Program-made: the position numbers and the translations under genes
Origin: Labilibaculum manganireducens
GTDB taxonomy: Bacteria > Bacteroidota > Bacteroidia > Bacteroidales > Marinifilaceae
DNA: 64,000 nt
Assembly (NCBI RefSeq): GCF_002843385.1
Contig: NZ_MVDE01000009.1
Coordinates: 1 to 64,000 of the forward strand
Direction: 5' to 3'
Part shown: piece after piece, positions 12,251-39,880 of the stretch
Layout of the letters: each line of letters begins with the position of its first letter
Position numbering within the stretch: the stretch's first letter is position 1
The notes under the pieces: model-generated
What the model was told of the DNA's origin: nothing
The model's input: the letters and a program-made list of their open reading frames with translations, nothing else
Database searches by the model: none

Positions 12251-12273
12251 ATGTTATTCTATTCTAAAGGTCA

Positions 12274-13890: not shown

Positions 13891-13900
13891 GATTCCAAGT

Positions 13901-17034: not shown

Positions 17035-17078
17035 CAAAAAAAAAAACTGCAAATCTCTCTTTTGAGATTTGCAGTTTT
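17035..17078 (-). terminator. Rho-independent terminator after the GH127/GH146 genes
   Basis: Arms 17043-17057 and 17064-17078 form a perfect 15-bp stem (core CTGCAAATCTC) with a six-base loop. On the minus strand it is followed by a run of about 12 T. It closes the enzyme operon ending at 17126. Confidence 0.93.
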
Positions 17079-17125
17079 CAGAACTATCCACCATTAAAAA
17101 ACTAACTAAAATATTCTTTCCTTAT

Positions 17126-21936: not shown

Positions 21937-21974
21937 TATATATCTATATTTAGTATGAAAATTCGGTATCGGAA

Positions 21975-24386
21975 CTATTCCAATTCCCATTCGAAAATTC
22001 CTGACGCGTTTTTTTCAGGCAATTTCACTTCAAGTTTTATTGCAGTGGTCTTCACTGCTTTGAATGAAACTTTGCTGGGAACATCTTTTGTTACAGTGTA
22101 GGGTTCATTATTCTCAACAGGCATCCACTCACTGTCTTTATTTTTATAGTAGATTTTCCACTCTTTTGGAATACGGCAACCGCCCCAAGGAGCATCATCA
22201 TACCAATAAACTGTTGAACCACTTACAGTTTCCTCACCGTCAAATTCGTATGAAATCCATTCTGTGGTTCCTTCTTTAGGCCACCAATGGTAATAAGGTA
22301 CAGCTTGAGCCTTACCATTTTTAGGGATGAGTTGGTCGTTAACCGCACTAATTGCTTTCACCAAATGCGAGGCATTAACTTTACTTTCGGAAGCAAGAGT
22401 GGGTTGCTGCATGGGACGACTTGTACTTAAATCGTTGGAAAGCCAGACTGTCATTTCACCGCTTCCACGATGAGCCCAGGCATAGTAAGGAATCATGTTC
22501 AATTGAACATCTTTTACTTCGATTTTACCTTGTTTGTTGTAATTAAGTACCTGAGCATCGGTATGAATCATATTGATGCCATAAAGCAAGTCTTGTTTGT
22601 TTTCAACAGTAAATACCGGTTTTTGTGGAATAACAGCACTCAATACACTATAATCATTATCAGGCCACTCAGCACAATAAACTACCGGACCGCACTCAAT
22701 TGCAACTCTGCCCTGATCTGCCTCTACCAATGGATGGGCTTTTACGGTACGCGGTTCCATATCGAAATGAACTTCAACCTTGTCGCCTTTACGCCAAGTA
22801 CGACAGATGGTGAAATAACCATTTTTAAGTTGACTTGTAACAGACTGCCCGTTTACTTTAACTGAATATGATAATTTTTTGTTATCGGTGAAAGTATATA
22901 AATCACTTGGTACTACCTGACCTAACACCCATCCCGGAATACGGATTTTAAGGTTGAAGTTTTGTTTTTTCTTTGGATTTACATCCAGATTAATATCACC
23001 AACCCAAGGATAATTGGTTGTTTGTTTCAATACTACCGGTTTTCCATCTACCTTAATTTCCGAATTATTTGACATGAACAGATTTACATACAAATCACTT
23101 TTATGCACTGCATAAATATATCCGGGAACAGAAGGAATAAAGCGGCAAATATTTGACGGACAACAGGCACAGCCAAACCATGGCCGGCGTTGGTGCTGAC
23201 CAATTGATTCAAGAGGATTTGGATAGAAAAATCCATCGCCTTCCAATGAAACACCACTAATCAACCCATTATAAAGAGTGCGTTCCAGTACATCGTAGTA
23301 TTTTGATTCGCCATGAAGCAGAAATAATCTGTAATTGAGATAAACATTTCCGATGGCAGCACAGGTTTCACAATACGCCGACATATTAGGCAACTGATAA
23401 TTTTCACCAAAAGCCTCACCATGCCCTGTAGCACCAATACCTCCTGTGATGTATAATTTTTTGCCCACAATGTTTTCCCAAATTCTATCGATGGCGTTTA
23501 CATAGGTAGTATCACCGGTAAGTGCAGCCACATCGGCCATGCCGGTATACATATAGGCAGCACGAACGGCATGCCCAACAGCTTCGTCCTGTTCCAAAAC
23601 GGGTTTGTGCGACTGGCTGTATTCACTTTTTATTGTGGTGTAACCACGCTTATCGAGCAGGAACTTTGCAAAGTCCAGATATTTCTGTTCGCCCGTTGCA
23701 ACATATAGTTTTGATAAAGCCATTTCTGCAATCTGATGACCTGGAACTACTGTTACCTGTCCGGGTTTATCGCCAACTTCCCTTACGGCACAATCGGCAT
23801 ACTTTTTCGCGATATCTAAAAAATTTGTTTTCCCAGTTGCCTGATAATGTGCCAATGCACCCTCAACCATATGTCCCAGATTGTACAACTCATGGCTAAG
23901 GTCTTCCTCTTTTTCCCAACGTTTGGTTCCTGCCCATTCATGCGGATGTGCAGGGTTCATTGTCCGGGAAGTGTATAAGTATCCATCTGCCTCCTGCGCA
24001 GCGGCCACAATTGTCAGCACACTGTCAATATATTTGTCTAATTTTTTATCCGGAAAAGTCTGCATTGAATAGCTTGCTCCTTCAATGGTTTTATACACAT
24101 CGGTATCATCAAATGAAAAGCCTTCCACTTTAATCGTATCACTTGGATGTGCTGCCTTAATAAAGTTTTCATATCGACCCGTTTCTTCACACTTACTAAA
24201 AGCCAATGGAATAGTCACTTCACGACTTGCTTTCAGTCTTTGTCCCCAAAACGAATCTGTAACTTTTACTGAAGTAAAAGGAACAGGAGAAATGGGATAT
24301 CCACCTGTTTTATTTTTTTCCTGAGCATTTGCAGCAAAACACAAAATGCAAAGTGCAAGTGTTAAAACTCTTTTAATTGTTGTCAT
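21975..24386 (-). CDS. GH127 beta-L-arabinofuranosidase (copy 1)
   Basis: An 803-residue secreted enzyme with signal peptide cut near ANAQ. It has the same order as the downstream copy: N-terminal VPFTSVKVTDSFWGQRL, DTDVYKTIEGAS, YCETCAAIGN (Glu340, Cys342), FGCACCPSN (Cys408, Cys409), beta domains, and a C-terminal discoidin-like module with VYWYDDAPWGG and the ending GIFEWELE. The four residues match the zinc site of the known family member HypBA1, whose nucleophile is the first cysteine of the CC pair. Here the signal peptide lacks a lipobox, so this copy may be periplasmic or free while copy 2 is lipid-anchored. It heads the GH127-GH127-GH146 run, 38 bp before copy 2. Confidence 0.94.
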   Translation of the reverse strand: MTTIKRVLTLALCILCFAANAQEKNKTGGYPISPVPFTSVKVTDSFWGQRLKASREVTIPLAFSKCEETGRYENFIKAAHPSDTIKVEGFSFDDTDVYKTIEGASYSMQTFPDKKLDKYIDSVLTIVAAAQEADGYLYTSRTMNPAHPHEWAGTKRWEKEEDLSHELYNLGHMVEGALAHYQATGKTNFLDIAKKYADCAVREVGDKPGQVTVVPGHQIAEMALSKLYVATGEQKYLDFAKFLLDKRGYTTIKSEYSQSHKPVLEQDEAVGHAVRAAYMYTGMADVAALTGDTTYVNAIDRIWENIVGKKLYITGGIGATGHGEAFGENYQLPNMSAYCETCAAIGNVYLNYRLFLLHGESKYYDVLERTLYNGLISGVSLEGDGFFYPNPLESIGQHQRRPWFGCACCPSNICRFIPSVPGYIYAVHKSDLYVNLFMSNNSEIKVDGKPVVLKQTTNYPWVGDINLDVNPKKKQNFNLKIRIPGWVLGQVVPSDLYTFTDNKKLSYSVKVNGQSVTSQLKNGYFTICRTWRKGDKVEVHFDMEPRTVKAHPLVEADQGRVAIECGPVVYCAEWPDNDYSVLSAVIPQKPVFTVENKQDLLYGINMIHTDAQVLNYNKQGKIEVKDVQLNMIPYYAWAHRGSGEMTVWLSNDLSTSRPMQQPTLASESKVNASHLVKAISAVNDQLIPKNGKAQAVPYYHWWPKEGTTEWISYEFDGEETVSGSTVYWYDDAPWGGCRIPKEWKIYYKNKDSEWMPVENNEPYTVTKDVPSKVSFKAVKTTAIKLEVKLPEKNASGIFEWELE

Positions 24387-24435
24387 TGTTATATCCTGTT
24401 TTTTAATATTACTATTTCAGAAATTAATTACTTTT

Positions 24436-24443
24436 CAAATGTA
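24436..24443 (-). promoter_or_regulatory. Candidate -7 box for the GH127/GH146 operon
   Basis: The minus strand reads TACATTTG, an exact TAnnTTTG match, 50 bp before the GH127 start codon. No good TTG -33 box lies 19-21 bp upstream, which is what an activator-dependent promoter would look like. The rest of the 241-bp gap (24387-24627) shows nothing I recognise. Confidence 0.45.
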
Positions 24444-24627
24444 AAATTGTATCGAAATGCTCACATTAAGTTGTCGGTTTGTTCAAAATAATAGTACAAA
24501 TGTTTTTAATTCTTCAATTACATCGATTTATCAAGGCTTTATCCACTCCATTCATAAGAGTAAATATTTTCGCCTTTAATTTTACTGGATTTAACTTATT
24601 GCCGAAAAATAAACTGATTAATGAATA

Positions 24628-26766
24628 TTATTTATCCGGAGATGTAATCTTCATTAATTCAATAATTTCCTGCACGGTTAATGCTTTGTTAAAAAGCTGG
24701 GAATTTGAAATATAACCTGTATAATTCTCTGCGTATGAACCACTTGCGCCAATCAGAATATCACTGTTTTTAACAAATAGATTAATTGGTTGTTGAGTAT
24801 TTATAACACCATCAACATATACCGATTCAACCATTCCATCAAAGCTCAGTGCTATGTGATGCCATTTTGATGCTTCGGGGATTTCTTTATAGGCTAAATC
24901 AACAGATCCATCTCCATGAGCCACAGCTCCAAAATTACTTTTACCATACATTAATGCTGAATAGGAGCCTTGCAGCATATTTTCACGACTATTCCAGGTT
25001 ATCAGGCATTCTCCATCTCCAATTTCAGGATTAAACACCCACGAAGATACAGTATACGGTGAGTTCCAGCTTAAACTGTTAGGAGCAGGTTCACTTAATT
25101 TAAAAAAGCTTTCTCCATCAAAAGAAATTGCTTTTACATTGTCTATATACTTTATTTCGGGAGCACCTTCTTTCATAAAATATCCCCCTAAACTTCCTGA
25201 ATTTTTGAAGGAATAATCAAATGAGTCCATTACGAAATTTTCGACGTCAAAATTCATTAATAAATGATCATCCGTTAAAAGATTATCCTTAGAAGTTTTC
25301 GACAGCAAGGCCAATTCAGGAATTTCAAATAAATCAGGATAAACTTTTAAATTCCATATTGCAGGAAACAATCCTCCTTTTTCAGCTCCGGTTACTGTCA
25401 ATTTAACATAGCGGGTATTTGTATTGTTATCATCAATCATTGGTGACCCACTTTGCCTGTTATTTGTTCTGTCTGAAAATAAAAACCAATTAATGCTGTC
25501 AGAAGAACATTCAATTCTATACTGATAGTAAAAAGTTGAATACTCAAACTGAGTCATTACTCTGGCAACTTTCACTTTTTTGCCCAAATCAATAACCAAT
25601 GATTGAGGGTATGTACTTGATGCCGCCTTCCACATCGTTCCGTTATTATTATCTGTGGCATATTCAGGCAGATATTTATAATCAACCGGGCTATTTGTAT
25701 ATTTTGTTGCCGGTGATTCCAAATGATAATAAGATGTAGCTGTTGTTTTGGCTTTAAAGGCCAAATCTTTTTCAGGGATCTGGTTTTTTCTCAAATAACC
25801 AATTCCTTTATGCGTTGGAATTACCGGAAGAATAGTACTGTCATTCAGGAAATCAAGTCTATCAGCGCAAACTTGTCTGAACTCACCACCAGTACTATGT
25901 GGATTATCATGACGATGATACAGGATATAATAATCACCGCCATCTTTTAAAACCGAATGATGCCCGGGACTATCAATACTTCCGTCCTGATTTGTTTTCA
26001 GTATTGGAGAATTATCTCCGTAGTTAAAGGGACCTACCGGAGAATCAGAATAAGAGTAATGAACTGCATAGCTGCTCAACCTGCAATCGCCTGACGAATA
26101 CATCAGAATATACTTTTCATTGTGTTTTAATAAATAAGCGGCTTCAAATACTTCAGGAATTTGAGTGATTGGAATTGATCCGCTTTCCAATATTGTACAA
26201 TGATCTTTGGGATCAATTTTAGCCCAGCCAAGTCCACCGAAACTAGAACACCAAGTCCCGAAATAGGAATAGATTGATCCATCATCATCCAAAAAATACT
26301 GAGCATCCAAAGCAGGTAACCCCTTAATCGCTGTTCCCACAGGAATAACAGCCTGTCCATTTTTCAGACTTTTCCATGGCCCGATTGGTGAATCAGAAAC
26401 ATAGGCATAAATATTACAGCCATGTTCACAATTCCCCATAAAATAGTAATACTTTCCATCCTTCCCTTTCATCACATCAGGAGCCCAACAATTGGTTAAG
26501 CCATCCGGTAACTCAATATCCATTTCGGTGTTGTACCAATTCACAAAATCTTTACTTACCCAAACCTGTGGTTCTCCCGAAGCCAATTTAATTCCATCGG
26601 TAGTGGAATACAGATAGAAGGTTTCCCCAAATTTTTTAATGGTTGGATCGGCAAAGTAGCCTGGTAGTAATGGGTTATCTATCCCCTTAATTTTATGTCC
26701 TGTTTCCTGTCCATTTAAGCAGAACGGAAATATCAATAGTAAAAGATACAAGCCTTTTTTGAGCAT
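24628..26766 (-). CDS. Modular GH43 glycosidase with discoidin and LamG domains
   Basis: A 712-residue secreted protein (signal peptide ending LNGQ). Residues about 28-320 form a GH43 five-blade propeller: Asp40 in YFADPTI (base), Asp154 in ALDAQYF (pKa modulator) and Glu208 in VFEAAYLL (acid). About 350-475 is an F5/8 discoidin-like module (SLVIDLGKKVKVARV). About 520-705 is a LamG-like domain (SWNSPYTVSSWVFNP, HHIALSFDG). GH43 enzymes remove alpha-L-arabinofuranose, beta-xylose or beta-galactofuranose; alpha-L-arabinofuranosidase is the best fit beside three beta-L-arabinofuranosidases. It would trim alpha-linked caps so that the GH127/GH146 enzymes can act (inference). It lies between a hairpin at 26833-26864 and the GH127 promoter region. 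Confidence 0.9.
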   Translation of the reverse strand: MLKKGLYLLLLIFPFCLNGQETGHKIKGIDNPLLPGYFADPTIKKFGETFYLYSTTDGIKLASGEPQVWVSKDFVNWYNTEMDIELPDGLTNCWAPDVMKGKDGKYYYFMGNCEHGCNIYAYVSDSPIGPWKSLKNGQAVIPVGTAIKGLPALDAQYFLDDDGSIYSYFGTWCSSFGGLGWAKIDPKDHCTILESGSIPITQIPEVFEAAYLLKHNEKYILMYSSGDCRLSSYAVHYSYSDSPVGPFNYGDNSPILKTNQDGSIDSPGHHSVLKDGGDYYILYHRHDNPHSTGGEFRQVCADRLDFLNDSTILPVIPTHKGIGYLRKNQIPEKDLAFKAKTTATSYYHLESPATKYTNSPVDYKYLPEYATDNNNGTMWKAASSTYPQSLVIDLGKKVKVARVMTQFEYSTFYYQYRIECSSDSINWFLFSDRTNNRQSGSPMIDDNNTNTRYVKLTVTGAEKGGLFPAIWNLKVYPDLFEIPELALLSKTSKDNLLTDDHLLMNFDVENFVMDSFDYSFKNSGSLGGYFMKEGAPEIKYIDNVKAISFDGESFFKLSEPAPNSLSWNSPYTVSSWVFNPEIGDGECLITWNSRENMLQGSYSALMYGKSNFGAVAHGDGSVDLAYKEIPEASKWHHIALSFDGMVESVYVDGVINTQQPINLFVKNSDILIGASGSYAENYTGYISNSQLFNKALTVQEIIELMKITSPDK

Positions 26767-26832
26767 GATAATAAATTTTCATCATAAAAAAATAAATACA
26801 AAAGAAATGATAATTCTCTTTTGGAAATAATT

Positions 26833-26864
26833 AGACAGGCGCAGCCAAATGGCTACGCCTGTCT
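26833..26864 (-). terminator. Strong hairpin after the DUF6055-like gene
   Basis: Arms AGACAGGCG (26833-26841) and CGCCTGTCT (26856-26864) pair perfectly, and AGCC/GGCT pairs inside. The following minus-strand sequence AATTATTT is only a weak U-tract. It may end the SusCD-SGBP transcript or lower expression of the downstream GH43. Confidence 0.65.
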
Positions 26865-26883
26865 GTATAGTCTATTATGTATA

Positions 26884-28893
26884 TTACTTAATTGTAATAT
26901 TCATTACAAAAGTAACCTGATATTGTGTACCATCCTTGGTGTAAATAAGTGCTTCCTTAACAGTATAAGTGTTACCTACTGCACTTTTCCCTGGATATTG
27001 TCCGATGTTCAATTCAAAACTACTTGAAGAAAACTCGGAAAATAATTTACTGTCATTCTCACTACCCCAGCCGATTACACCTCCAACACTATCGAACCAA
27101 AAACCATATCCGTTAGCTGTGGTCTCGTAATTTAGTGATCCGTCAGACTCAACAGCGGCGAAGGCAATTTTACCCTCCGAAGGCGTTTCTTTCGCGCCAA
27201 GCATATTACTTGAAATGGCAGAAGGTTGCATTACAAAAGCCTGAGCCACCTTATTAATATCACCATTAGCATTAAGGTTTACAGTAGCTCCTGAATAATC
27301 ATCAGCCGCAGCAAATGAAATATCATAGGTTAATGTCAAATCTTCGGGCGCAGCATTTGGATCAATAGTTATATTACCCAAAATATCAGTGTTGGAAAAT
27401 TTCAACTTATAAGGCCACTGATCATCGTTGCTTTCTTTTTCGTCCCAAGGATGAGCTTCATAAGTAGACGGTGCTCCCAATACTACAAACCATAAATTTA
27501 CACATCCTTCCGGTACAGTAAATTCAACCGATCCAGCTGTCTTCCTGTTCATTTCTCCATAAACACGCTGACCATTGTCTAGCAGTGCAACGTACCCATA
27601 ACGCCAACCTGCCCTTGTAAGGGAACTACTATTGTAATTTGTTGCAGTACCCGGATCTCCCGTGGCCAGCGCCGAACCAGGTGTTAAAGCTGTAAAACTT
27701 GTCGTAATAACAGTTCCAACAGTAGGTACATTTAATGGAATTACATTGTATCCAGTAGAACTGGGACATTTACTGTATGCCACCTGATAACTTCCATCGG
27801 TAAGTTGATAAAACTTATAGGTATGCTTACCAATATAGTTTTCGCCAAGCGAACGAAGAGCATCAAGATCCCAAGTAACAAACTTGGTCGCAGCCTCATA
27901 CAATTCTGCGTTTAATCCATCCACTGTTAATCCGTTTATACGCATATAAGCTTGAATTGGATCTTCTGGTTCTTTAGCCTCACGCCAAATTTTTCCGATC
28001 ATGTCTTTCCCATGCTTTTCAGCCCAGTAATAGTGAATAAAATAACTGGCATAACGATAGTTCTCATGCAAAACATGTCGATGATAATTATCACAATACA
28101 CTGGGTAATGATAGCCCTCAAAAATTTCTTCAGGATAACTTTGCATAGCCTGCCATTGGGCAGTTTGTTCCCAAAAGGCATTGCCTCCATTTCCTCCAAA
28201 ACCATAACGTAATCCTGCACCATTACCTAGATCACAGAAAACCTGATATTGAAAACTGTGACCAATTTCATGTGCAATTACTGATCCCACCGGATGAACA
28301 GTAGCCGGATTTATCCACAATGCACCAATAACATCATCATAACCTGATCCATACGCCATCCATTCGTCTGTATAGAACAGATAAATTTGCATTTTGTAGT
28401 CATCAAGATTAGATTTACCTACTCCCACTTCCGCAAACTTTAACGTGTTAATATTTAAATCGTAGAACGATTCGGCTTTCAAAAGTAAATCGTCAATATC
28501 TACACGATAAAATTCAGGTACACTACTAGCATTGGGATCAAGCCCAAAATCAGGTTCCCAAAAAACAATAAAATGATCCGATTGCTTACTTCGGACAAAC
28601 GACCATTTACTATCACCTCGCAACATATCAAGGCTCTTGTGTTCTTCCGGCTTATAAAATCGATCATAATCAGGTACATCTGATTCTGTAAGGATTGTTA
28701 CGGCAGATGTAGTATCTACCATAGCTGTTGTATCTACAGGAGTAGGTTCCGGACGAGTTTCAGGAATGTCACTTTTACCACATCCACTAGTATAAACAGA
28801 TGTAACAATAACAAACAAAACAAGTAAAAAGCAATTGTATAAGCCGGAAAAACCCGACTTATACAATTTAAAATAGGATTTATTTTCTTTCAT
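26884..28893 (-). CDS. DUF6055-like HEIGH lipoprotein with C-terminal DUF4859-like domain
   Basis: A 669-residue lipoprotein (Cys38, TSGC). Residues about 75-390 match my recollection of DUF6055 proteins: KSDHFIVFWE-like opening, then IAHEIGHSFQYQVF with His208, Glu209 and His212, and WEQTAQW with Glu242 as a possible third zinc ligand. A beta-rich middle domain is followed by a C-terminal DUF4859-like domain (about 555-669) with NGYGFWFDS and LNIGQYPGKS. A zinc metallopeptidase acting at the cell surface is plausible but unproven. It starts 7 bp after the DUF4859 triple-repeat gene, in the position usually held by SusE/F-like surface glycan-binding proteins. The shared DUF4859-like unit suggests both proteins bind the same ligand. 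Confidence 0.8.
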   Translation of the reverse strand: MKENKSYFKLYKSGFSGLYNCFLLVLFVIVTSVYTSGCGKSDIPETRPEPTPVDTTAMVDTTSAVTILTESDVPDYDRFYKPEEHKSLDMLRGDSKWSFVRSKQSDHFIVFWEPDFGLDPNASSVPEFYRVDIDDLLLKAESFYDLNINTLKFAEVGVGKSNLDDYKMQIYLFYTDEWMAYGSGYDDVIGALWINPATVHPVGSVIAHEIGHSFQYQVFCDLGNGAGLRYGFGGNGGNAFWEQTAQWQAMQSYPEEIFEGYHYPVYCDNYHRHVLHENYRYASYFIHYYWAEKHGKDMIGKIWREAKEPEDPIQAYMRINGLTVDGLNAELYEAATKFVTWDLDALRSLGENYIGKHTYKFYQLTDGSYQVAYSKCPSSTGYNVIPLNVPTVGTVITTSFTALTPGSALATGDPGTATNYNSSSLTRAGWRYGYVALLDNGQRVYGEMNRKTAGSVEFTVPEGCVNLWFVVLGAPSTYEAHPWDEKESNDDQWPYKLKFSNTDILGNITIDPNAAPEDLTLTYDISFAAADDYSGATVNLNANGDINKVAQAFVMQPSAISSNMLGAKETPSEGKIAFAAVESDGSLNYETTANGYGFWFDSVGGVIGWGSENDSKLFSEFSSSSFELNIGQYPGKSAVGNTYTVKEALIYTKDGTQYQVTFVMNITIK

Positions 28894-28900
28894 TTCTGAG

Positions 28901-30352
28901 TTATTCTACGTTGTAAGTGATATTAAGAGTAACAGTCACGCCATTGTAAGCAGCTATCAATTTTGTACTTACAGTATCTCCAGAAACAGCATTATCAGGA
29001 TGATTACCTCCATATAGATATAGTTCGGTTTCGTTATGTCCAATACTTAAATAAATCAAACCTTCGGCCCATTCACCCGTTGTTCCGTCGGCTTTAATCC
29101 AATAACCCGGTACATCTGAAGTGTAAACAGGATCTGTATCACCAACAGAACCCTCATATAATTTCAGATCACCAGAAATAATTGCCTGATAAATCTGATA
29201 GGTTGTCTTCTTAAATGCATTACGCAATATTTCTTTAACATCATATTGTATACTTGCATAATCGTCACTGTAAGCTTTACCCAGCTCAACATCCATTACA
29301 ACGTCTTCCGGATCACCGGCAGGAGCAGTTTCAGGATCCTCATAAGCAATTACATTAACCGTAACATTCAACATCACAATTTTGCTATTGGCAAGCAAGC
29401 CGTATTTAATAACAAATGTCTGTCCTGCAGTTAAATGTCCCGGGTATTGTCCAAGACTAATTTTGTCAGCAGAAAAATCGCCATAATCACTATATACACT
29501 CGCATTATCACCATATTCTCCTACAAAACCATTCATATCGTACCAAAAACCATTCCCGGTAACAATTTCCTGATTATAAGAACCATCTTCATTGACTCCA
29601 ACAAAACCAACCTCATCCATTGAACTTACTCCCAGATCAATTAACGCCTGAGTCAGATTAAACTGAAGCGAATCAGGATCATAACTGCTTTTAGGAATAA
29701 TATTAATAGCAAGATCCTGAGTACTAACCACAGTTGCGCTTAATTGTCCTGGTGCAGCAACATTAATTGTAATAACAACTGCCACACGTTGTTCATTGTA
29801 CTTTAAACATTCAATAATTTTAATTGTCTGACCATCGGTTAAATGCCCTGGGTATTGCCCCACATTGAAAACACTGGTTTCAGTATCAAATTCAGCAAAA
29901 ACCATGGCGTTCTCACCCCATTCTGAAAGATCACCATTAGCATCCCACCAATGACCCCAAGGAGCATTTGTATTCGTTATACTTCCAGCATCTGCATGTG
30001 TGGTACCTTCAATGGCAAAACCCTTAATTTCCGGAGCTCCGCTTTCACCGTTAATACCAGCAAGAACTTCTTCTTCCGAAATACCAAAAAGTTCAGCAAT
30101 TTTATCAATTTCGACTGTTGCAGGGGCACCATCATATAATGATTTACTCGTGGTTATTTCTACAGAATATTCAAGTACCAAATCCGCATTGATCTTCTCT
30201 TTCTGAGCTTGCAGAATTGAATCCTGACGCGCTATTTCAGCTATTTCATCAGCAGTCATCTCATGTACGCTGCTAAAATCTTCATTATCGGCACAACTAA
30301 ACAATCCTGCAATCAGCATGGACAGAATAATATATATATGTATTTTTTTCAT
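28901..30352 (-). CDS. Surface lipoprotein with three DUF4859-like domains
   Basis: A 483-residue lipoprotein (Cys20, LFSC). After a short linker come three homologous domains of about 125-140 residues. Domains one and two carry the motif (V/L)GQYPGHLT followed by GQT and a beta strand ending VTINV or VTVNV; the third has YGGNHPDNAVSGDTV and ends NITYNVE. The same unit recurs once in the next gene. These features resemble DUF4859, which is common beside SusC/SusD. Position directly after SusD, lipid anchor and tandem binding-like domains argue for a surface glycan-binding protein (SusE/F-like role). No catalytic motif is visible. An inverted repeat at 30382-30431 separates it from susD. Confidence 0.82.
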   Translation of the reverse strand: MKKIHIYIILSMLIAGLFSCADNEDFSSVHEMTADEIAEIARQDSILQAQKEKINADLVLEYSVEITTSKSLYDGAPATVEIDKIAELFGISEEEVLAGINGESGAPEIKGFAIEGTTHADAGSITNTNAPWGHWWDANGDLSEWGENAMVFAEFDTETSVFNVGQYPGHLTDGQTIKIIECLKYNEQRVAVVITINVAAPGQLSATVVSTQDLAINIIPKSSYDPDSLQFNLTQALIDLGVSSMDEVGFVGVNEDGSYNQEIVTGNGFWYDMNGFVGEYGDNASVYSDYGDFSADKISLGQYPGHLTAGQTFVIKYGLLANSKIVMLNVTVNVIAYEDPETAPAGDPEDVVMDVELGKAYSDDYASIQYDVKEILRNAFKKTTYQIYQAIISGDLKLYEGSVGDTDPVYTSDVPGYWIKADGTTGEWAEGLIYLSIGHNETELYLYGGNHPDNAVSGDTVSTKLIAAYNGVTVTLNITYNVE

Positions 30353-30381
30353 CTGTGTATAATTTATTTTACGATACTTAC

Positions 30382-30431
30382 TGCCTGTTGCTTAACTCTA
30401 AATTCACATAATTTACGGCAAACAACAGGCA
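30382..30431 (-). repeat. Inverted repeat between susD and the DUF4859 gene
   Basis: TGCCTGTTG (30382-30390) and CAACAGGCA (30423-30431) pair as a 9-bp stem with a 32-base loop. There is no T-run after it on the minus strand, so an mRNA-processing or partial attenuation role is more likely than full termination. Confidence 0.5.
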
Positions 30432-30460
30432 ACTAAATTCATCACTTTATTCGAAGAACT

Positions 30461-32152
30461 TTAGTATCCTTCATTTTGAATGAGAGAAATATTCGCATCT
30501 ATAGCCGATTTAGGAATCGGAAAATAGTTCCAGTGAGTCTCTGAAGTCGCATCTTTACAAAACCACGACTTACCATTAAAGACATTTCTGCCATCTGCCA
30601 TCTTGAATCGGATAAGATCCTGACGACGATGATGTTCACCTACAAACTCCCAGCCCAGATCATCAAGCAAGCCACCTAACTCAATATCGGCTCCACCTTC
30701 GCTTGTTGTTACATAAGTATCCCAGTTAGCAAAACCTTCGCTGGTATATTCGCGATGTCCGTAATCGTAAATACTACCTCCTTTTAATTGAGCAATAGTA
30801 CGTGTAGCTTTCGCAACCGACTCTAACGAACGCATACGTATATCTGTAATCAAATCCGCTGCAATTTGTTCATCGCGTCCAAGACGCAACAGACATTCTG
30901 CTTTTATAAACATTGCATCCGCTAAGCGGAAAAAAGGTACGTCGTCGCCCCCGGTTCCACCGTCGCCAGCCACAATTTCATATTTAACAAAACGGTAACC
31001 TTCTTGTTGATAAGCACCAGGGTTATCAATAGAGTGAACTTGCTGAGAATAATTCAAAACGCCCTGACCAGCCCAATCATCAGTGCTGAAAGCAATTGGG
31101 TCACCCGATTGAGGTATTGTGTTACCCGATGCATCTTCAGTTGCCTGATATTGTATACCACCAGCCCATGTATAAGCCAAACGATTATCACCGTCTTCGT
31201 AACTTTCAATAAATTGAGGAACTGCACAACTACCATTCCAAGGAGAACCATCGAATCCGTATGCCGCAGCACCTGCCCCTACCAAACATTTATTAACTAA
31301 GTAATTATGACTCGCATTCTTCTTATCAAGAGGCAGGGCAAAAATTACTTCCGGTGAAGTAGAGATATCCTCTTTAAAATTATCAAGGTAGTTTGTAGCA
31401 AGAGAATATCCACCATTACTGATAATATCTTCTACTTCAGTTAGGGCTTTGTCATAATATGTATCATCATTTGTTTCAAAATATACATTGTGATTCAAAT
31501 ACAACTTTGCCAATACCATATCCGCCGCATATCTGTTAGGATAGCCATGTACTTTGGCTGTTCCCAGATCGTCCTTAATGGCCTCCAATTCACTCACACA
31601 AAAATCGTAAATAACGTCAGCAGTAACCTGCTCCGGCAAATATCCCGCTTCAAATTCCTGAGTTGTTTCCAAAGGTACATTTCTAAAGGCATCAAGTAAT
31701 ACATAGTAGTTGAGTGCACGTAAAAAACGCATCTGTGCCTGTTCCGAACCTGTATCCGGTAATACATCCAAAGTTTTATTGGCATATCCTATACCAACAT
31801 AGGCATAATACCACAAACCTTCTGAATGTCCTTGACCCGAATTCCAGCTATGTTTATGCATATTGACGTACAAATCGCCCCAACCAACACCAATACGTTT
31901 GGGTGTCATATAAGTATCGCTGCACTCCTCATTGAAGTCAAAATAGCCATTCCATCCCCAATACAAAAATCGAAACTGGGCATAAGCTTCTCCCATCATA
32001 GATCCTACGACTTCGGAATCGGTTACATCAACAGTTTCATCAGTAAGTTTATCATAAACACTTTCGTCCAAATCAGTGCATGCTCCTGATATCAATAAAG
32101 AGCTTACAGCAAGACTAATAAATATATATTTAATGAGTTTCATAATTCTCAA
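30461..32152 (-). CDS. SusD/RagB-family glycan-binding lipoprotein (pair 2)
   Basis: A 563-residue lipoprotein. The ATG at 32143 (MKLIKYIF) opens a cleaner signal than the one at 32152 and may be the true start. Lipobox Cys is in LISGAC. SusD features include the ALNYYVLLDAFRNVPLETT segment, PFFRLADAMFIKAECLLRLG, EFVGEHHRRQDLIRFK and the terminal IQNEGY. It starts 3 bp after its SusC partner. It parallels the SusD at 12274-13890 closely, even in the N-terminal WGWNGYFDFNEE and MHKHSWN-type segments, so both pairs probably capture related glycans. It is followed by the two DUF4859-bearing lipoproteins, which would complete the surface complex. Confidence 0.95.
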   Translation of the reverse strand: MRIMKLIKYIFISLAVSSLLISGACTDLDESVYDKLTDETVDVTDSEVVGSMMGEAYAQFRFLYWGWNGYFDFNEECSDTYMTPKRIGVGWGDLYVNMHKHSWNSGQGHSEGLWYYAYVGIGYANKTLDVLPDTGSEQAQMRFLRALNYYVLLDAFRNVPLETTQEFEAGYLPEQVTADVIYDFCVSELEAIKDDLGTAKVHGYPNRYAADMVLAKLYLNHNVYFETNDDTYYDKALTEVEDIISNGGYSLATNYLDNFKEDISTSPEVIFALPLDKKNASHNYLVNKCLVGAGAAAYGFDGSPWNGSCAVPQFIESYEDGDNRLAYTWAGGIQYQATEDASGNTIPQSGDPIAFSTDDWAGQGVLNYSQQVHSIDNPGAYQQEGYRFVKYEIVAGDGGTGGDDVPFFRLADAMFIKAECLLRLGRDEQIAADLITDIRMRSLESVAKATRTIAQLKGGSIYDYGHREYTSEGFANWDTYVTTSEGGADIELGGLLDDLGWEFVGEHHRRQDLIRFKMADGRNVFNGKSWFCKDATSETHWNYFPIPKSAIDANISLIQNEGY

Positions 32153-32155
32153 ATT

Positions 32156-35100
32156 TTAAAAGTTAACAGAAAGTCCAATTGTGTATGAACGTACAGTAGG
32201 ATACTTATCACGACCATCAATACCTGGAGCTAAGAAATTGTTATCAACTTCTGGATCCAGACCGGAATAACCTGTGATACAGAAAAGGTTTTGACCCGAT
32301 ACATAAACACGGAGGTTATTCACATAACTTTTCGCTTTAGCTGAAAGAGGAATGGTATAACCCAAAGTTGCGTTAGATAGTTTTACAAAATCACCATTTT
32401 CAATATGATCGCTCCATACACCTTGCGACATAGAATTGGTCAAGCCTACCTGCAGCTGACTGCCTGTTTCGGGATTAATAACCGCTGCACCGGCAGCATC
32501 AACTGCACCATACAAATTGGCCGCCGACTTTAAACGGTTGTAGGCAATAGAGTTATTTTCATAAAAACTACGCTGAGAATTCAGAATCTGATATCCGAAC
32601 TGACCGGTAAACTGAAGATTAAGATCGAAACCTTTGTAACGGAAAGTATTGCTCCATCCGGCATAAATTTGCGGTAGACCATTTCCCAAACGCTGACGGT
32701 TTTTTTCTTCGTTGTATTTGGTGTCAAATTCCTTAACACTCCAAGTGTCATCATCATTCTTCACTTGAACCAGCACAACACCGTCCTTACTTACTCCAAC
32801 AGATCTTAATCCCCAGAAATCACCAAGACGATGACCTATCTCCATTGCATGAGTTGCTACAGAAATTGGATCACCAACCCCTCCAACTTCAGAGAAATTA
32901 TCAGTTTCGTACAAATCATTTGATAAACTCAAGAGCTTATTCTCATTATGAGAAAGAGTTAGGGTAGAATTCCATTCAAATTCGCTTGTTTTAACAGGAA
33001 TTGCATTTACCATTACCTCAATACCATTATTACGCATTTGACCAACGTTAGCTGTCGTAACATCATACATATTAGGAGGCACAGGAACAGCGTAATCATA
33101 AAGTAAGTCAACCGTTTTCTTTGTATACACATCAATGGCTCCACTCAATCGTGAATCAAGAACAGCCCAGTCTAAACCGATATTCCATTCGCTGGTTTTT
33201 TCCCATTTAAGATCGGGATTCGGATTTTGAGCTACTTTCAATGAAGGTGTCCACTTACCGTCTGTATTTAAATGTTTACCATATGCGTCATAGTCGAATG
33301 TGGTAAGAGACAAATAAGAATCAGTTGGAATAACACCGGTTACACCATAACCCGTGCGAAGTTTTAAATTTGTTAACCACGAAATGGATTTCATGAAATT
33401 TTCGTTACTAACTGTCCATCCTAATGATGCTGCCGGAAAATTACCCCATTTATTATTTTCACCAAATTTTGACGAACCTTCACGACGAAAACTTACCATT
33501 GCATTAAAACGATTGTCATAACCATAAGTTGCACGTCCGAAAAAACCAACTAATTTATCGTCTCTCTTGTCAGAAGCCATGCCTGCCACATGGTCTTCAT
33601 CTGACAGATAAGTACCTTGTCCTAAATTATTATACAAATAAGATTCTGAAGGAAAATTAGAGTTCGATGCGCTAAATCCATCGTGAACGTTATATAAATA
33701 GCTATAACCTACAATTGCACTTATACGACTCTTTTCAATTGAAAAATCGTAGCTGGTAGTAAGTTCCAGATTATCACTAACATCGTTACCCGATGATTTT
33801 GAAGCAGAACCTTTTATACCACCTGTAGCCTGAGTATAATACTGGCTGGTATAGTATGTTTCACCAGTTGTTTCTATTTCTTTTTTTGACAACATCAGAT
33901 TGGTTTTCCAGCCTTTAATCGGCTCAAAAGTGATATTACCGGTTACACGCGCATATTTAGTACGGGTATCTCCAATCATTTCATTTTGAATGGCAACCGG
34001 ATTAAAATATTGAAAACGACTAAATTCTTCGAAATAAGTGCCATCTTCATTGTAAACAGGTGAGGAAGGATTACGTATTAAAGCCTGACGATACACGTAA
34101 TTATTGTTGTTATTTGTGTTCTTATGAGTCGTGTAAAGTACATTAATATTGAACTTCAGAATGTCATTCATCGCATATTGACTAAAGTCCATCTGGGCTT
34201 TAATGTCATTGCTATCACTCTTACGCATTATTCCTTCTTCGTCCGAAAACGTAATGCTAGCAGCGTATGTCGAAGATTTAGTACCACCTGTCAAACTCAG
34301 CGAATGATTTTGCGTATAGCCTGCTTTTCTGCTAACAGCCTCCAACCAGTCTGTATCATAACCTCCATATTCGAAATTAGTGCGACCATAAATAATATCA
34401 TTAGTATCCATAAAATCGAGAGTCTTGTACCATTCTGATAATGAGACATAAGCAGAATAAGTCGCGGTTGCCTGAGAATCGCGTTTACCCGATTTAGTAC
34501 TAATAATAATTACTCCGTTGGCACCACGCGTACCATAAATAGCTGCAGCCGAAGCATCTTTTAAAACGTCGATTGAAGCAATATTTTCGGGTGCTACTGT
34601 AGTTAACGACCCCTCAATTCCATCTACCAATACAAGTGGTTGAACACTACCTTTAATCGTAGTAATACCACGAAGCATTATGCTTGATGTTGCATTCGGA
34701 TCACCTGAAGATTTAGTAATGCTCAAACCGGCAATTTTTCCTTTTACAAGCTCGGCGGCATCACCAATTTTACCAACAATAAAATCTTCTGATTTTACAC
34801 TGGTTATCGCACTAGTTACATCCCCTTTTCGCTGGGTTCCATAACCAATTGCCACAACCTCTTCCAAGCCAACAAAATCAGCTTCTAAATGCACTTCCTG
34901 CTTTGGCATTTCTTTTACTACATTAATATCATAAGTTTTATATCCAATAAAAGATATACTTACAATATCACCCACTTTTGCATCAAGATTAAAATATCCT
35001 TCAGAGTTAGTAATGGTACCAATTGTTGTACTTTTAATAAGAACAGTAACTCCAGGTAAAGGAGAACCTATTTCATCCAAAACAATTCCTTCAACTTTTT

Positions 35101-35212
35101 CCTGGGCTAAGCCAATAGTTGAGGAACAAAACACAACACTTAGAAATAATAAAAACATCAACTGATAATGTTTTAAATTACTTCTACTCTTTTGTTCTAG
35201 TTTTTTTCTCAT
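32156..35212 (-). CDS. SusC-family TonB-dependent receptor (pair 2)
   Basis: A 1018-residue outer-membrane receptor with an N-terminal carboxypeptidase-like domain after the signal peptide (GLAQ), the SusC signature LEEVVAIGYGT, the plug block AAIYGTRGANGVIIISTK, and a barrel ending TIGLSVNF. It imports oligosaccharides together with the SusD encoded 3 bp downstream. It shares the YRQALIRNP segment and many barrel motifs with the SusC at 13901-16900, showing common descent. It lies 359 bp downstream of the HTCS gene on the same strand, and this gap holds nested palindromes that may be its operator. It is probably the main HTCS-controlled transcript. Confidence 0.96.
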   Translation of the reverse strand: MRKKLEQKSRSNLKHYQLMFLLFLSVVFCSSTIGLAQEKVEGIVLDEIGSPLPGVTVLIKSTTIGTITNSEGYFNLDAKVGDIVSISFIGYKTYDINVVKEMPKQEVHLEADFVGLEEVVAIGYGTQRKGDVTSAITSVKSEDFIVGKIGDAAELVKGKIAGLSITKSSGDPNATSSIMLRGITTIKGSVQPLVLVDGIEGSLTTVAPENIASIDVLKDASAAAIYGTRGANGVIIISTKSGKRDSQATATYSAYVSLSEWYKTLDFMDTNDIIYGRTNFEYGGYDTDWLEAVSRKAGYTQNHSLSLTGGTKSSTYAASITFSDEEGIMRKSDSNDIKAQMDFSQYAMNDILKFNINVLYTTHKNTNNNNNYVYRQALIRNPSSPVYNEDGTYFEEFSRFQYFNPVAIQNEMIGDTRTKYARVTGNITFEPIKGWKTNLMLSKKEIETTGETYYTSQYYTQATGGIKGSASKSSGNDVSDNLELTTSYDFSIEKSRISAIVGYSYLYNVHDGFSASNSNFPSESYLYNNLGQGTYLSDEDHVAGMASDKRDDKLVGFFGRATYGYDNRFNAMVSFRREGSSKFGENNKWGNFPAASLGWTVSNENFMKSISWLTNLKLRTGYGVTGVIPTDSYLSLTTFDYDAYGKHLNTDGKWTPSLKVAQNPNPDLKWEKTSEWNIGLDWAVLDSRLSGAIDVYTKKTVDLLYDYAVPVPPNMYDVTTANVGQMRNNGIEVMVNAIPVKTSEFEWNSTLTLSHNENKLLSLSNDLYETDNFSEVGGVGDPISVATHAMEIGHRLGDFWGLRSVGVSKDGVVLVQVKNDDDTWSVKEFDTKYNEEKNRQRLGNGLPQIYAGWSNTFRYKGFDLNLQFTGQFGYQILNSQRSFYENNSIAYNRLKSAANLYGAVDAAGAAVINPETGSQLQVGLTNSMSQGVWSDHIENGDFVKLSNATLGYTIPLSAKAKSYVNNLRVYVSGQNLFCITGYSGLDPEVDNNFLAPGIDGRDKYPTVRSYTIGLSVNF

Positions 35213-35571
35213 ACGTTTCTAATTTTATAAATAGATTTAGGATCATTTTGATATTTCAAAGATGTATTTACAATGACAAAAGTGCATGCACGTATGTTGA
35301 AATAACATACACACATGTGTAATTGAAAGTAATACGACAATAAATACTACTGAATATCAATATCTTGACCAATAAAACTATGAGCTTTCGAGATATTACA
35401 ATATGGAAGATAAATGTCTGACAAAGACAGAAGATGAAATTCATTGAAATCGATTCCGAAAAAATAGAAATTATGCAGTTCAAACTTCAATTGAGAAAAA
35501 AAATCAATAATAAAAACTCAGAATTTTAATGATGCAGGAAGTCTCTTGTCAAAAAATAAGGAAAATGAAAA
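35213..35571. other. Intergenic region upstream of SusC pair 2
   Basis: This 359-bp gap has no credible gene; a minus-strand open frame at 35268-35483 has low-complexity hydrophobic content and no start context. Its main content is the palindrome cluster at 35282-35320. A CATCTTTG near the SusC start resembles a -7 box with one mismatch. The rest (35321-35571) is AT-rich and shows nothing I recognise. Confidence 0.6.
35282..35320 (-). promoter_or_regulatory. Nested palindrome cluster upstream of SusC
   Basis: Two perfect 10-bp palindromes, GTGCATGCAC (35282-35291) and ACACATGTGT (35311-35320), flank a hairpin with arms GTATGTT and AACATAC around GAAAT. The two sides are also partly complementary across about 16 bp. 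It lies 70-108 bp before the SusC start, a fitting place for an HTCS binding site. Confidence 0.45.
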
Positions 35572-38500
35572 CTAAATTTCAAAATAATCACGCGGAGATT
35601 TCCCGAAAAATTCTTTAAATCTTCGGCTAAAATAGGCAGGATTGGAAAATCCTGTTCGATAAGCAGCTTCAGAGATATTACATTTCCCATCAGAAATTAA
35701 TTTCACAGCCTCTCTTAACCGAACAGTACGAACAAATTCAGTTGCCGAACAATCCGTTATTCTTTTCAATTTAATATGCAAAAGAGATCTGCTAATCCCC
35801 ATTTCCTTTGTGATAAAAGAAACATCCATTGAAGATTGATCTAAATTTTCAATGATAAGAGAAGTAAGACTCTGAACAAACTCACGATCCGATTCAGAAT
35901 GAGTTATGTCAGCAGGTGCAATAAAGGCATCTTTCTTAAATCGCTCAATAACATTTCTTCTGGTATTTAATATATTACAAATATTCTGACTTAATATCTG
36001 TGGGTAAAAAGGCTTCTCAATAAATAAATCAGCACCCGTTTTTAAACCGATGTATTCATTATTAGTTCCTCCTTTTGCAGTTAATAAAATTATTGGAATG
36101 TGCGATGTTTCAATATTGGTTTTTATTCTTTTCGTTAGTTCCAAACCGTCAATTCCCGGCATCATAACATCACTAATAATGAGTTCCGGAGCACATTCAG
36201 CAATTCGGATCAGCCCCTCTTCACCATTTGAAGCCGTTGTTACATTATAATCTTCCTGAAGACTTTCACGAATAAATTCAAGCAATTCCAGATTATCATC
36301 AATGACCAAAATGGACGGCGAATTTTTTATTTGTTCCGGTTTATCTGCCAAAGCATAACTCTTATGATCGTCTTCCACTTCAATATCCTCAAGAATACTT
36401 CTCCTGCCGCAACAGTCTGTCAATTCATCATCAGAGTAATCCGATTCAGATACTGGTAGTGAAATCGTAAATTTAGTCCCCTCCTGAAGTTTACTTTCTA
36501 CAACTATACTTCCTTTATGAAGAGTAACCAATCCCTTTACAAATGCCAATCCAATTCCCGATCCTGAATAAACTTTGACCTTATCTTCGGCTTGAAAATA
36601 CCTGTCAAAAATTTTATCAAGCTTATTGGATTCTATTCCATGTCCAGTATCCAACACCGACAACACAAGAGTCTGTTTCAATTCTTTATCTAAACAAATT
36701 TCGTTTTGCACCTTTCCGGTCAGTCTGATTGAATCACCCTTGTCTGTAAAGTTGAAAGCATTGGATAATAAATTAACAAGCACCTTTTCCATTTTAGAAT
36801 AATCAAACCATACTTCGGAATCAGAACCTTCTGTATCAAGGATAAGATCAACACCTTTCATTTCAGCTGTAGTCGAAAATGATTCCTTCAAGTCCTGTAA
36901 AAGAGTATTGATATTGTTTTTGCTGACCTGTAATGTTTCTTTTCCCCGCTCTACCTTTCTAAAATCAAGCATTTCATTTACAAGCCGTAATAACCTTTTT
37001 ACATTTTTTTCAATCCCAATAAATTTCTGTTTTACCGAAAAACTGATATTCTCATTTTCAATCATATTCGAAAGAGGACCAATAATTAATGATAAAGGAG
37101 TTCTGAATTCATGTGAAATATTAGTGAAAAATTCAAGTTTTGCCTGATTCAACTCTACGGCATATTCTTTCTCACGTCTTTCCAGATTAGCAATAGCCTT
37201 AGATTTTTGAATGCGGGAACCAACAAAATAAATACCTGTAAATATGAAACAAACAATAAAAAAATAAATTAGATAACCCCATATGGACAGATAAAATGGC
37301 GGTTTAACATGGATATTGATTGATCGTTGATGATCGCTCCATTCCGATTTATCGGTAGAAGCCTTAACATGAAGAGTATAATTTCCCGGACTAAGATTGG
37401 TATAGGTAGCAAACCCCCTGTTTCCAACGTAATTCCATGATTTATCAAAATTCTCAAGATAATAAGCATACTGACACTTACCTTGATTTTCATAGTTTAG
37501 TGCAGTATAACCTATTGTAAAAACATTTTCTTTATATTTTAAGTTGATTTCAGATGATCTGTTCAGTGATTTTTTAAGCGGTGAATTAACACCAGGAACT
37601 ACAGCTTTATTGAATAGCTGCATTTCGGTAAACACAACATCCAGAGGTTTAGATTTAACTTCTTCTCCCGATTCATAAAATGAAACCATCCCATTATTTC
37701 CACCAAAATATATGTTCCCACGACTATCCTTATACGAAGCTCTGTAATTGAATTGTTCAAAAGGAATGCCTGAATCAAGATCAAATAAAGTGTATTTCTT
37801 TGATTCAGGATTGAATTTAACCAAGCCCTTATCACTGCTGGCCCAAAAATCACCATTTTCTTCTTCTTCCAAACCAAAAATCCACGAAACAGGAAATCCA
37901 TTATCATTATTGAATCGAACCACTTTATCATTCGCTTCATCGTAATAACAAAGTGCCTCATAAGAGTCACCTATCCAAACTCGTCTTTTTGAATCTATTT
38001 TTACAAAATTTATTCCTTTCATAAAAGGAATCTTATCAAATTTTGACAGCGTTTGATCCTGCACGTTATAACGATACACACCTGTAAATGATGAAAGCCA
38101 GATGTATTCACCGGCATCACACATATATTCGATTTGCACTCCGCCCAATATTTCTTTAAAAAATGGAGATATCGACTTGCTTATTGTATTAAAAACTGCA
38201 ACACCACTACTTGTTGAAATATAGATCAGATTTCCCTTTTTCAAAAAATGATAAATATTATCGGAGGGTAATAAAGGGTGATTTTTTGTTGTTATGTATT
38301 CAAACCGACCTGTTTTAGTATTTAAAATATTAATCCCATGGGTATAGGTTCCAATCCATAATCTTTCGGGGGATTCAAAAATTAGACAGTGCAAATTATT
38401 AAAATTCAAGCCATTACCCTCTACGCAACTTTGGAATTTCGTTATCTCTCCAGTTGAAATATTCATTTTATTCAACCCCATATCTTCAAGGCCAATCCAT

Positions 38501-39798: not shown

Positions 39799-39880
39799 GT
39801 ACACATTTGTTGCAGTTGTGAATTTGAATTTTTATTTACTTTACATAGAATCTACATCAAGCTCATTTGAAAATATAAAC

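Follow-up and report, generated by a model that had tools for sequence, protein, structure and literature searches.

The window analyzed here, 64,000 nucleotides of Labilibaculum manganireducens (contig NZ_MVDE01000009.1, positions 1 to 64,000), encoded two adjacent lipoproteins, P0002 and P0001, beside a SusC/SusD pair. P0002 was comprised of three DUF4859 units, and P0001 of a DUF6055 peptidase domain followed by a single DUF4859 unit. Sequence, predicted structure and gene neighborhood together suggest, with a probability of roughly 0.6, an extensin-utilization locus in which these two proteins act as a surface capture-and-cut module, DUF4859 doing the capturing. Extensins are rigid, glycosylated, cross-linked hydroxyproline-rich glycoproteins (HRGPs) that stiffen plant cell walls, and HRGPs are quite likely the substrate of the locus. 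The arrangement is real, conserved and biologically coherent: a SusC/SusD locus probably aimed at a glycoprotein, beyond glycan alone.

In the proposed mechanism, the three DUF4859 units of P0002 and the one of P0001 would hold an arabinosylated glycoprotein next to SusC/SusD on the cell surface, and the gluzincin domain (DUF6055) of P0001 would cut its backbone. DUF4859 would thus fill for P0001 the role of the left-handed beta-helix domain in Svx, a homologous peptidase of plant pathogens. SusC/SusD would take up the glycopeptides, GH43 and GH127/GH146-type enzymes would remove arabinosides linked to hydroxyproline (Hyp), an alpha-galactosidase would remove Ser-linked galactose, and DPP-IV, M24 and a small HEFAH protein would break down the Pro/Hyp-rich peptide. 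Hydroxyproline would then be used by a hydroxyproline dehydratase (HypD) encoded elsewhere in the genome. The import role of SusC/SusD pairs is established; DPP-IV and M24 enzymes dismantle peptides, and GH43, GH127/146 and alpha-galactosidase enzymes remove sugars.

Domain content of P0002 and P0001

Both open reading frames (ORFs) were on the minus strand, in the gene order SusC, SusD, P0002, P0001, with 7 bp between the P0002 stop codon and the P0001 ATG. This agreed with the initial annotation, which had placed the two genes 7 bp apart in the SusE/F position, after SusC and SusD. The core unit contained:

32156-35212, minus: SusC/RagA TonB-dependent receptor (SusC 705.6 bits, cut-off 368)
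30461-32152, minus: SusD (SusD_RagB 83.0 bits, cut-off 23.1)
28901-30352, minus: P0002, 483-amino-acid lipoprotein in the SusE/F position, made up of three DUF4859 units (Pfam, own profile, alignment)
29756-30181, minus: P0002 DUF4859 unit 1, residues 58-199, GQYPG at 29846-29860 (profile, AlphaFold2)
29348-29731, minus: P0002 DUF4859 unit 2, residues 208-335, GQYPG at 29438-29452 (profile)
28904-29305, minus: P0002 DUF4859 unit 3, residues 350-483, GGNHP replacing GQYPG (own profile, Pfam)
26884-28893, minus: P0001, Svx-related predicted gluzincin-type metallopeptidase lipoprotein (DUF6055) with C-terminal DUF4859, 669 amino acids (Pfam, NCBIfam, model)
27382-28668, minus: P0001 DUF6055 region, residues 76-504 (Pfam)
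28258-28272, minus: P0001 HEIGH zinc-binding motif, residues 208-212 (invariant in 67 rows)
28168-28170, minus: P0001 E242, presumed third zinc ligand, in WEQTAQW (alignment)
26887-27339, minus: P0001 C-terminal DUF4859 unit, residues 519-669, GQYPG at 26989-27003 (Pfam, profile)

P0002 matched Pfam DUF4859 (PF16151) in three stretches (E 2e-44, 150.8 bits, cut-off 22.6). P0001 matched the same family at residues 532-654 (E 8.4e-30, 103.6 bits), and DUF6055 (PF19527) at residues 76-504 (E 5.1e-167, 556.5 bits, cut-off 27). These scores were so far over the Pfam cut-offs that chance is excluded. Four DUF4859 domains, including the one at the P0001 C-terminus, had been proposed from the letters, and all four were recovered. 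The GQYPG motif, which had been assigned to every unit of P0002, was present at residues 165 and 301 (units 1 and 2) and in the P0001 unit; unit 3 carried GGNHP at residue 448. Unit 3 was identified as DUF4859 by our own profile (E 1.3e-21) and by Pfam (34.8 bits, cut-off 22.6). Both proteins had also been called lipoproteins, and the lipoprotein cysteine was invariant in P0002 (C20; 16 rows, P0002 and relatives) and conserved in at least 90% of 67 rows in P0001 (C38).

DUF4859 was rare. Of 296 Bacteroidota genomes three contained it, one barely at the cut-off (22.7 vs. 22.6 bits), and it was present in seven of 59 close relatives (own genome counted). DUF6055 exceeded its cut-off in 34 of the 296 genomes, nine of which had a strong match. 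The L. manganireducens genome contained three DUF6055 matches and four DUF4859 matches, every one of the latter at this locus.

The fold of the module was examined on one unit (P0002 residues 55-205), using an alignment of 131 rows: the window's four units and 127 of 160 near-complete units, thinned at 80% identity. The AlphaFold2 model was confident, with a predicted local distance difference test score (pLDDT) of 95.0 and a predicted template modeling score of 0.89, and depicted a domain of mostly beta structure that includes two helices. The most conserved positions were Y19, G79, W81, G86, W91, G111, P114 and G120 (unit-1 model numbering), with W81 a Trp in 126 and W91 a Trp in 119 of the 131 rows. 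The initial annotation had suggested predicting and searching the fold of a single unit; the prediction succeeded, and the search returned middling matches only (Foldseek best E 2.5e-3; VIA best Z 6.1), on which no family is claimed. The VIA matches included peptide-binding adhesin domains (Z 6.0) and the DUF1735 N-terminal domain (Z 5.2). Sequence searches of solved structures with P0001 and P0002, alone or as profiles, found no relative; the best matches (none; E 0.023; 0.62; 0.0089) were short and were taken as chance. P0002 had no match to SusE/F families in Pfam and NCBIfam at E up to 1.

P0001 is a predicted gluzincin-type metallopeptidase, and as such would be active. The HEIGH motif and downstream WEQTAQW pointed out in the initial annotation were located at residues 208-212 and 241-247, giving a zinc motif of HExxH-X29-E242. 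An alignment of P0001 with 66 of 76 relatives of 580-760 amino acids (67 rows; the ten left out were mostly near-duplicates) showed H208, E209, H212 and E242 to be invariant. The spacing from HExxH to E was 29 in 46 of 67 rows and ranged from 28 to 37. Gluzincin spacing is given as 8-28 in PMC9266454, slightly under the 29 of P0001. In the P0001 model (pLDDT 88.8) HExxH was in helix 204-222 and E242 in a second helix, 239-252, as in gluzincins. The possibility raised earlier, that HExxH might be buried or lie away from Glu242, was thus not borne out at the level of helix placement. The model of the peptidase part matched lugdulysin, an M30 zinc peptidase (Z 16.5, root-mean-square deviation 4.0, 267 residues aligned), followed by M1 aminopeptidases and by the O-glycopeptidase AM0627 (7yx8; Z 8.4, deviation 6.1, 238 aligned), placing the predicted domain in the gluzincin fold. 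The Foldseek list for P0001, mostly unrelated beta-sandwiches, was set aside.

All 67 rows, P0001 included, matched the NCBIfam Svx/AvrXca model (NF040510) at E 0.001 or better. P0001 residues 367-504 aligned with Svx positions 309-446 of 601, which puts DUF4859 at the site of the Svx left-handed beta-helix domain. No C-terminal beta-helix (hexapeptide) was present in P0001, for which Pfam listed only DUF6055 and DUF4859 at E up to 1. Published evidence from 2026 (PMC13164431) showed that Svx degrades carrot extensin and spares gastric mucin and concanavalin A; Svx without its C-terminal helix domain lost extensin cleavage and kept azocasein cleavage. Svx relatives are listed from Gamma-, Alpha- and Deltaproteobacteria in PMC9266454, and a fungal M106 protein with DUF6055 is named in PMC11241649.

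Gene content of the window and of related loci

Other features of the window were:

39818-40939, plus: M24 Xaa-Pro-type peptidase (Creatinase_N and Peptidase_M24), outside the strand run
35572-39609: 1345-amino-acid protein, hybrid two-component regulator look-alike (judged by eye from sequence)
28833-28868, minus: 16-bp hairpin inside the P0001 signal-peptide codons
26833-26864, minus: strong terminator-like hairpin after P0001
24628-26766, minus: GH43 with F5/8C and laminin-G-like domains (Pfam)
21975-24386, minus: GH127-type enzyme, probable beta-L-arabinofuranosidase
19531-21990, minus: GH127-type enzyme, probable beta-L-arabinofuranosidase
17126-19489, minus: GH146-type enzyme, probable beta-L-arabinofuranosidase (closest solved structure 5opj)
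12274-16900, minus: second SusC/SusD pair, same strand run, between the GH146-type and GH27 genes (named from sequence)
10919-12121, minus: GH27-type alpha-galactosidase (Melibiase_2)
10079-10903, minus: small HEFAH metallopeptidase-like protein, 274 amino acids (no Pfam match itself)
7735-10002, minus: DPP-IV-type S9 prolyl peptidase

Adjacent SusC/SusD genes with degradative enzymes (GH43, GH127-family and GH27) make this a polysaccharide utilization locus. Additionally, positions 41018-63063 contained L-arabinose genes (mutarotase, AraB, AraD, transporter, AraA), a NUDIX/NrtR-type regulator, and a further SusC/SusD unit with GH43, GH43 and a GH51-type enzyme, the arabinose genes and this pair being named from their sequences. 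That unit probably serves arabinan.

The hairpin at 28833-28868 spanned +26 to +61 of the P0001 coding start, and its pattern was found once in the genome. Similarly placed hairpins were present in 13 related loci (L008, L009, L011-L017, L019, L021, L030 and L083), and four others (L020, L067, L086, L087) had a strong stem before the start instead of inside it. Across the 80 loci described below, 14 of 88 starts of peptidase-class ORFs had a strong hairpin beginning at +10 to +70, compared with 5 of 850 other gene starts; the window's copy comes in addition. In an alignment of 13 copies, from which L015, with its longer loop, and every locus lacking such a stem were excluded, 11 of 16 pairs had changed on both sides, a statistic biased by the choice of copies as best stems. 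The hairpin may be an attenuator or an mRNA-stabilizing stem that is also translated. Rfam gave nothing over its cut-offs in 24000-36000.

Conservation was scanned in the best 80 of 184 related loci, all in Bacteroidota. Several of the 80 end at contig ends, so the gene-content counts are lower bounds. There were 92 peptidase ORFs (window and fragments counted), 81 of them with one DUF4859, and 46 other DUF4859 proteins (window counted), which contained one (23), two (7), three (14), four (1) or five (1) units. The five-unit protein (L011:8081-10465), in the SusE/F slot, apparently arose from tandem copying. A separate DUF4859 protein was present in 40 loci, SusD in 53 and both in 37; in 27 loci the gene directly upstream of the peptidase, in the same orientation, encoded the DUF4859 protein. 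A 322-amino-acid protein between the two genes of a Sphingobacterium locus was considered as a hidden DUF4859 and rejected, having neither similarity nor a Pfam match.

GH127/146-catalytic genes were found in 30 of the 80 loci (47 genes in all) and DPP-IV, on either strand, in 18. The remaining counts were GH27 7, GH97 2, GH36 0, M24 6 and HEFAH domain 12; the GH97 family includes alpha-glucosidases too. In-locus GH127/146 counts were restricted to the catalytic region; an unrestricted count (28 in 30 loci; 33 of 80 loci) was discarded as inflated by cross-hits outside the catalytic domain. Multi-unit DUF4859 proteins co-occurred with GH127/146, which was present in 18 of 21 loci with such a protein and in 12 of 59 others. 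Within the L. manganireducens genome, three of four GH127-catalytic matches were in this locus. Close versions of the locus were present in Phocaeicola plebeius and Bacteroides mediterraneensis.

Enrichment was measured in 30 control genomes picked by hand from the 80, some with and some without glycosidases nearby. This choice favors GH-bearing loci (GH127/146 in 16 of 30 vs. 30 of 80; DPP-IV in 12 of 30 vs. 18 of 80). The 30 genomes contained 172 GH127-catalytic matches, and 26 GH127/146 genes were found in the loci against 0.74 expected by length; they also contained 172 DPP-IV_N matches, and 12 DPP-IV genes were found in the loci against 0.76 expected. In-locus counts used our own profiles; the whole-genome background used Pfam matches, in which some genes were counted twice, raising the expected number. 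Scaled to 80 loci, about two of each would be expected, compared with the 47 GH127/146 and 18 DPP-IV genes found.

Relatives of the HEFAH protein had weak similarity to ATLF (5 of 14 members) and M90 (9 of 14), at E up to 0.1. The domain was fused to GH97 (L027, L153, and L067 by length and profile), to GH27 (L021, where the fusion runs into the locus end) and to DPP-IV (L022). Pro-Pro endopeptidases belong to the ATLF family, so the HEFAH protein may cut the Pro/Hyp backbone. Two further proteins recurred in the loci: one of about 900 amino acids near GH43 (L014, L015, L165, L166; DUF5695 by Pfam in L014) and one of about 430 amino acids after the peptidase (L017, L024, L030; CotH kinase by Pfam in L017).

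Substrate, hydroxyproline dehydratase and alternative explanations

Extensin, according to PMC9266454 and PMC13164431, carries Hyp-linked oligo-arabinosides and Ser-linked alpha-galactose on a Ser-Hyp4 backbone. GH127/146 members act on Hyp-linked arabinosides (PMC10850190). Extensin as the ligand, a guess of the initial annotation, draws indirect support from the beta-arabinofuranosidases, alpha-galactosidase-type enzymes, prolyl peptidases and hydroxyproline dehydratase.

The trans-4-hydroxy-L-proline dehydratase of L. manganireducens (HypD; 1181.6 bits, cut-off 1100) was encoded on contig C8 (the window is on C9), 3 kb from another DUF6055 gene. The same-strand row there (L155, G000:C8:11000-30000, 9088-18233) consisted of an M61 peptidase, HypD, a HypD-activase-like protein (330 bits, under the cut-off of 425), a GH97 whose best model was retaining alpha-galactosidase (714 bits, under the cut-off of 800), and DUF6055. 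In total, HypD exceeded its cut-off in 16 of 75 genomes searched: six of six close relatives with DUF6055-DUF4859 and 10 of the 30 loci genomes (L009, L011, L013, L014, L016, L020, L021, L030, L051 and L083). It did so in none of 20 genomes without DUF6055, which were the first 20 listed and no random draw. Two genomes (G297 and G371) are apparently one, leaving 15 distinct HypD genomes, or 16 with our own.

DUF6055 was near HypD in seven of the 16 genomes, at about 3 kb (own genome, G297/G371, G302, G310, G322), 14 kb (G357) or 17 kb (G360); in G312 and G361 HypD was near a DPP-IV gene. Five cases of DUF6055 within 10 kb of HypD, from two genera, compare with about 0.19 expected if genomes have three DUF6055 genes per 5 Mb. 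The whole Thermophagus cluster, which spans two overlapping stretches from a single contig (L014 and L185), was on one strand: SusC, SusD, DUF4859x3, DUF6055-DUF4859, GH43, DUF5695, GH27, HEFAH, GH127/146-type enzyme, DPP-IV, radical-SAM activase and HypD. The glycosidase and the activase-HypD pair of Proteiniphilum (L020 and L186) had between them a large opposite-strand gene. Two DUF6055 proteins about 3 kb from HypD (L191:1694-4045 and L192:6799-9108) had an N-terminal fimbrillin-like (Mfa_like_1) domain.

Several results weigh against an extensin-utilization locus with a DUF4859 capture module. The 80 loci share ancestry and are no independent lineages, so their counts overstate the case. 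Fifty of the 80 had no GH127/146 in the stretch examined, some stretches being short; many of these, uncounted, were from Sphingobacterium, Pedobacter, Chitinophaga or Flavobacteriia. Both GH127-type enzymes of the window had aceric acid hydrolase, an enzyme for rhamnogalacturonan II (RG-II), as their best NCBIfam model, at 475 and 477 bits, half of the cut-off of 950. P0001 is homologous to Svx but no member of its equivalog family (64.9 bits, cut-off 625). Svx residues W136 and G137 (with N171), predicted to hold alpha-galactose in PMC9266454, correspond to S204, V205 and Q246 in P0001, counting from the zinc ligands rather than by residue-by-residue alignment; the site is not kept, and the cutting site may therefore differ. 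HypD was under its cut-off in 20 of the 30 loci genomes, including the species of the Phocaeicola and Bacteroides loci (L027, L067), in the one further genome with the fusion (G261), and in all 18 genomes that had strong DUF6055 and were treated as DUF4859-free, a status checked on the protein in 16 and assumed in G493 and G481. In seven of the 16 HypD genomes neither DUF6055 nor DPP-IV was near HypD in the stretch taken. The HypD carriers share ancestry and are mostly anaerobic, which may account for some of the association.

The binding role of DUF4859 is the weakest link. DUF6055 loci without DUF4859 exist, and they vary in their neighbors: DPP-IV, M24, GH97, GH43 and a GH127-like piece in G222; M24, GH43, GH36 and a GH127-like piece in G202; and in G238 a cluster of GH127/146-type, SusC, SusD, DUF6055, GH97-HEFAH, GH43 and GH127/146-type genes. 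By our own profiles, the DUF6055 gene on C4 of the L. manganireducens genome (L154) followed a SusC/SusD pair with no such enzymes adjoining, and those of G136 and G144 had no labelled neighbors. The substrate class thus seems tied to some peptidase branches, and DUF4859 seems an optional yet recurrent add-on of the DUF6055 peptidase. That the enzymes partly persist without DUF4859 supports HRGPs as the substrate and weakens the case that DUF4859 is essential. Two genomes of one lineage (G310, G322) had 10 and 9 DUF4859 matches in diverse proteins, including lipoproteins unrelated to the peptidase and some with BACON or FGE-sulfatase domains (L140-L150), so the ligand of DUF4859 need not be single. 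In this set a multi-unit DUF4859 protein (L143) adjoined a pyrroline-5-carboxylate reductase gene, which may be chance; this reductase also acts downstream of hydroxyproline dehydratase.

The initial annotation had made DUF4859 the binding module that ties the peptidase to a shared ligand. Its recurrence in the SusE/F slot, in one to five copies, and at the peptidase C-terminus, the place of the recognition domain in Svx, argues for this; the loci and lipoproteins just described, and the lack of a close solved relative by Foldseek, VIA or profile, argue against it. A ligand-binding DUF4859 is favored on balance. An assembly or spacer module, by which the peptidase and its SusE/F-slot neighbor would dock onto one another or onto SusC/SusD and which would not bind substrate, is the less likely explanation. 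It would suit the weak and undiagnostic matches to generic immunoglobulin/cadherin-like beta-sandwiches and the DUF1735 N-terminal domain (8w01 Z 5.2, 6t8l Z 4.6), the spread of DUF4859 through assorted G310/G322 proteins, and the single unit of most peptidase ORFs, yet variable copies elsewhere. Tandem copies would not obviously be needed for docking, however, and multi-unit proteins go with beta-arabinofuranosidases; the conserved W81, W91, G111 and P114 would suit a binding site, or equally a domain core.

RG-II or arabinan is the main rival substrate. Degradation of arabinan, arabinogalactan protein (AGP) or RG-II side chains, with peptidases and alpha-galactosidase as passengers, would accommodate the aceric acid hydrolase scores, the arabinan-type unit (GH43, GH43, GH51-type C-terminal domain) and sequence-named AraB, AraD and AraA in the window, and the action of GH146 members on arabinan and AGP (PMC10850190). 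This explanation is rather improbable, being weakened by genes that arabinan does not call for: the enriched DPP-IV; alpha-galactosidase-type enzymes that recur from varied families (GH27 in 7 and GH97 in 2 of 80 loci, GH97 in G222, GH36 in G202, GH97 in the L. manganireducens HypD row); and HypD, in the Thermophagus cluster, on the same contig in Proteiniphilum and adjoining DUF6055 in the L. manganireducens genome. A mucin-type surface O-glycopeptidase or general scavenging protease is a very improbable identity for P0001. AM0627 is among its fold matches, but mucin offers no obvious task for beta-arabinofuranosidases or HypD, and gastric mucin is left uncut by the homologous Svx (PMC13164431).

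If P0001 and P0002 do form an extensin capture-and-cut module, a broader proposal may tentatively be added: dedicated Bacteroidota loci would consume whole plant HRGPs, with DUF4859 as a new family that reads arabinosylated hydroxyproline and guides an Svx-type peptidase to cut the rod-like backbone. In relatives from Marinilabiliales and Bacteroidales, the freed hydroxyproline would feed HypD, a glycyl-radical enzyme whose gene is in the cluster itself or elsewhere in the genome. Anaerobes would then draw some of their hydroxyproline from plant extensin, giving hydroxyproline dehydratase a plausible plant-derived substrate source; DUF4859 and DUF6055, families without known function, would gain a role; and a peptidase type known from plant disease would be found in a nutritional setting in Bacteroidota. 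Among openly licensed PMC papers, DUF6055 was mentioned in one, whereas no paper on DUF4859, no bacterial nutrient locus for extensins and no proline-proline endopeptidase with hydroxyproline were found; hydroxyproline dehydratase was never paired with extensin, nor with Bacteroid and plant cell wall, and everything on Svx and extensin concerned Svx of plant pathogens.

Comparison with known systems

Svx/AvrXca of Pectobacterium, Dickeya and Xanthomonas (NF040510; PMC9266454, PMC10815107 and PMC13164431) resemble P0001 in having a homologous peptidase domain of gluzincin type, an accessory domain at the equivalent C-terminal position and a plant glycoprotein context. Svx is a secreted virulence factor with a left-handed beta-helix and HExxH-X22-E, whereas P0001 is a lipoprotein within a SusC/SusD locus with DUF4859 and HExxH-X29-E. 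P0001 differs also in the predicted galactose-site residues, absent at the matching positions, and in falling short of the equivalog cut-off. The M60-like O-glycopeptidases (AM0627; ZmpB of C. perfringens) are likewise gluzincin-type and act on glycoproteins; they are mucin-directed and have other accessory domains than P0001.

P0002 shares with the SusE/SusF glycan-binding lipoproteins the position after SusD, tandem beta-rich domains and a lipoprotein signal. Unlike them, it is built of DUF4859 units and has no SusE/F family match. The known Hyp-arabinoside-degrading system (PMC10850190) similarly has GH127/GH146-type enzymes for Hyp-linked arabinosides and imports the sugars by an ABC transporter. 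The locus described here has instead SusC/SusD together with peptidases and an alpha-galactosidase, and some of the genomes add hydroxyproline dehydratase.

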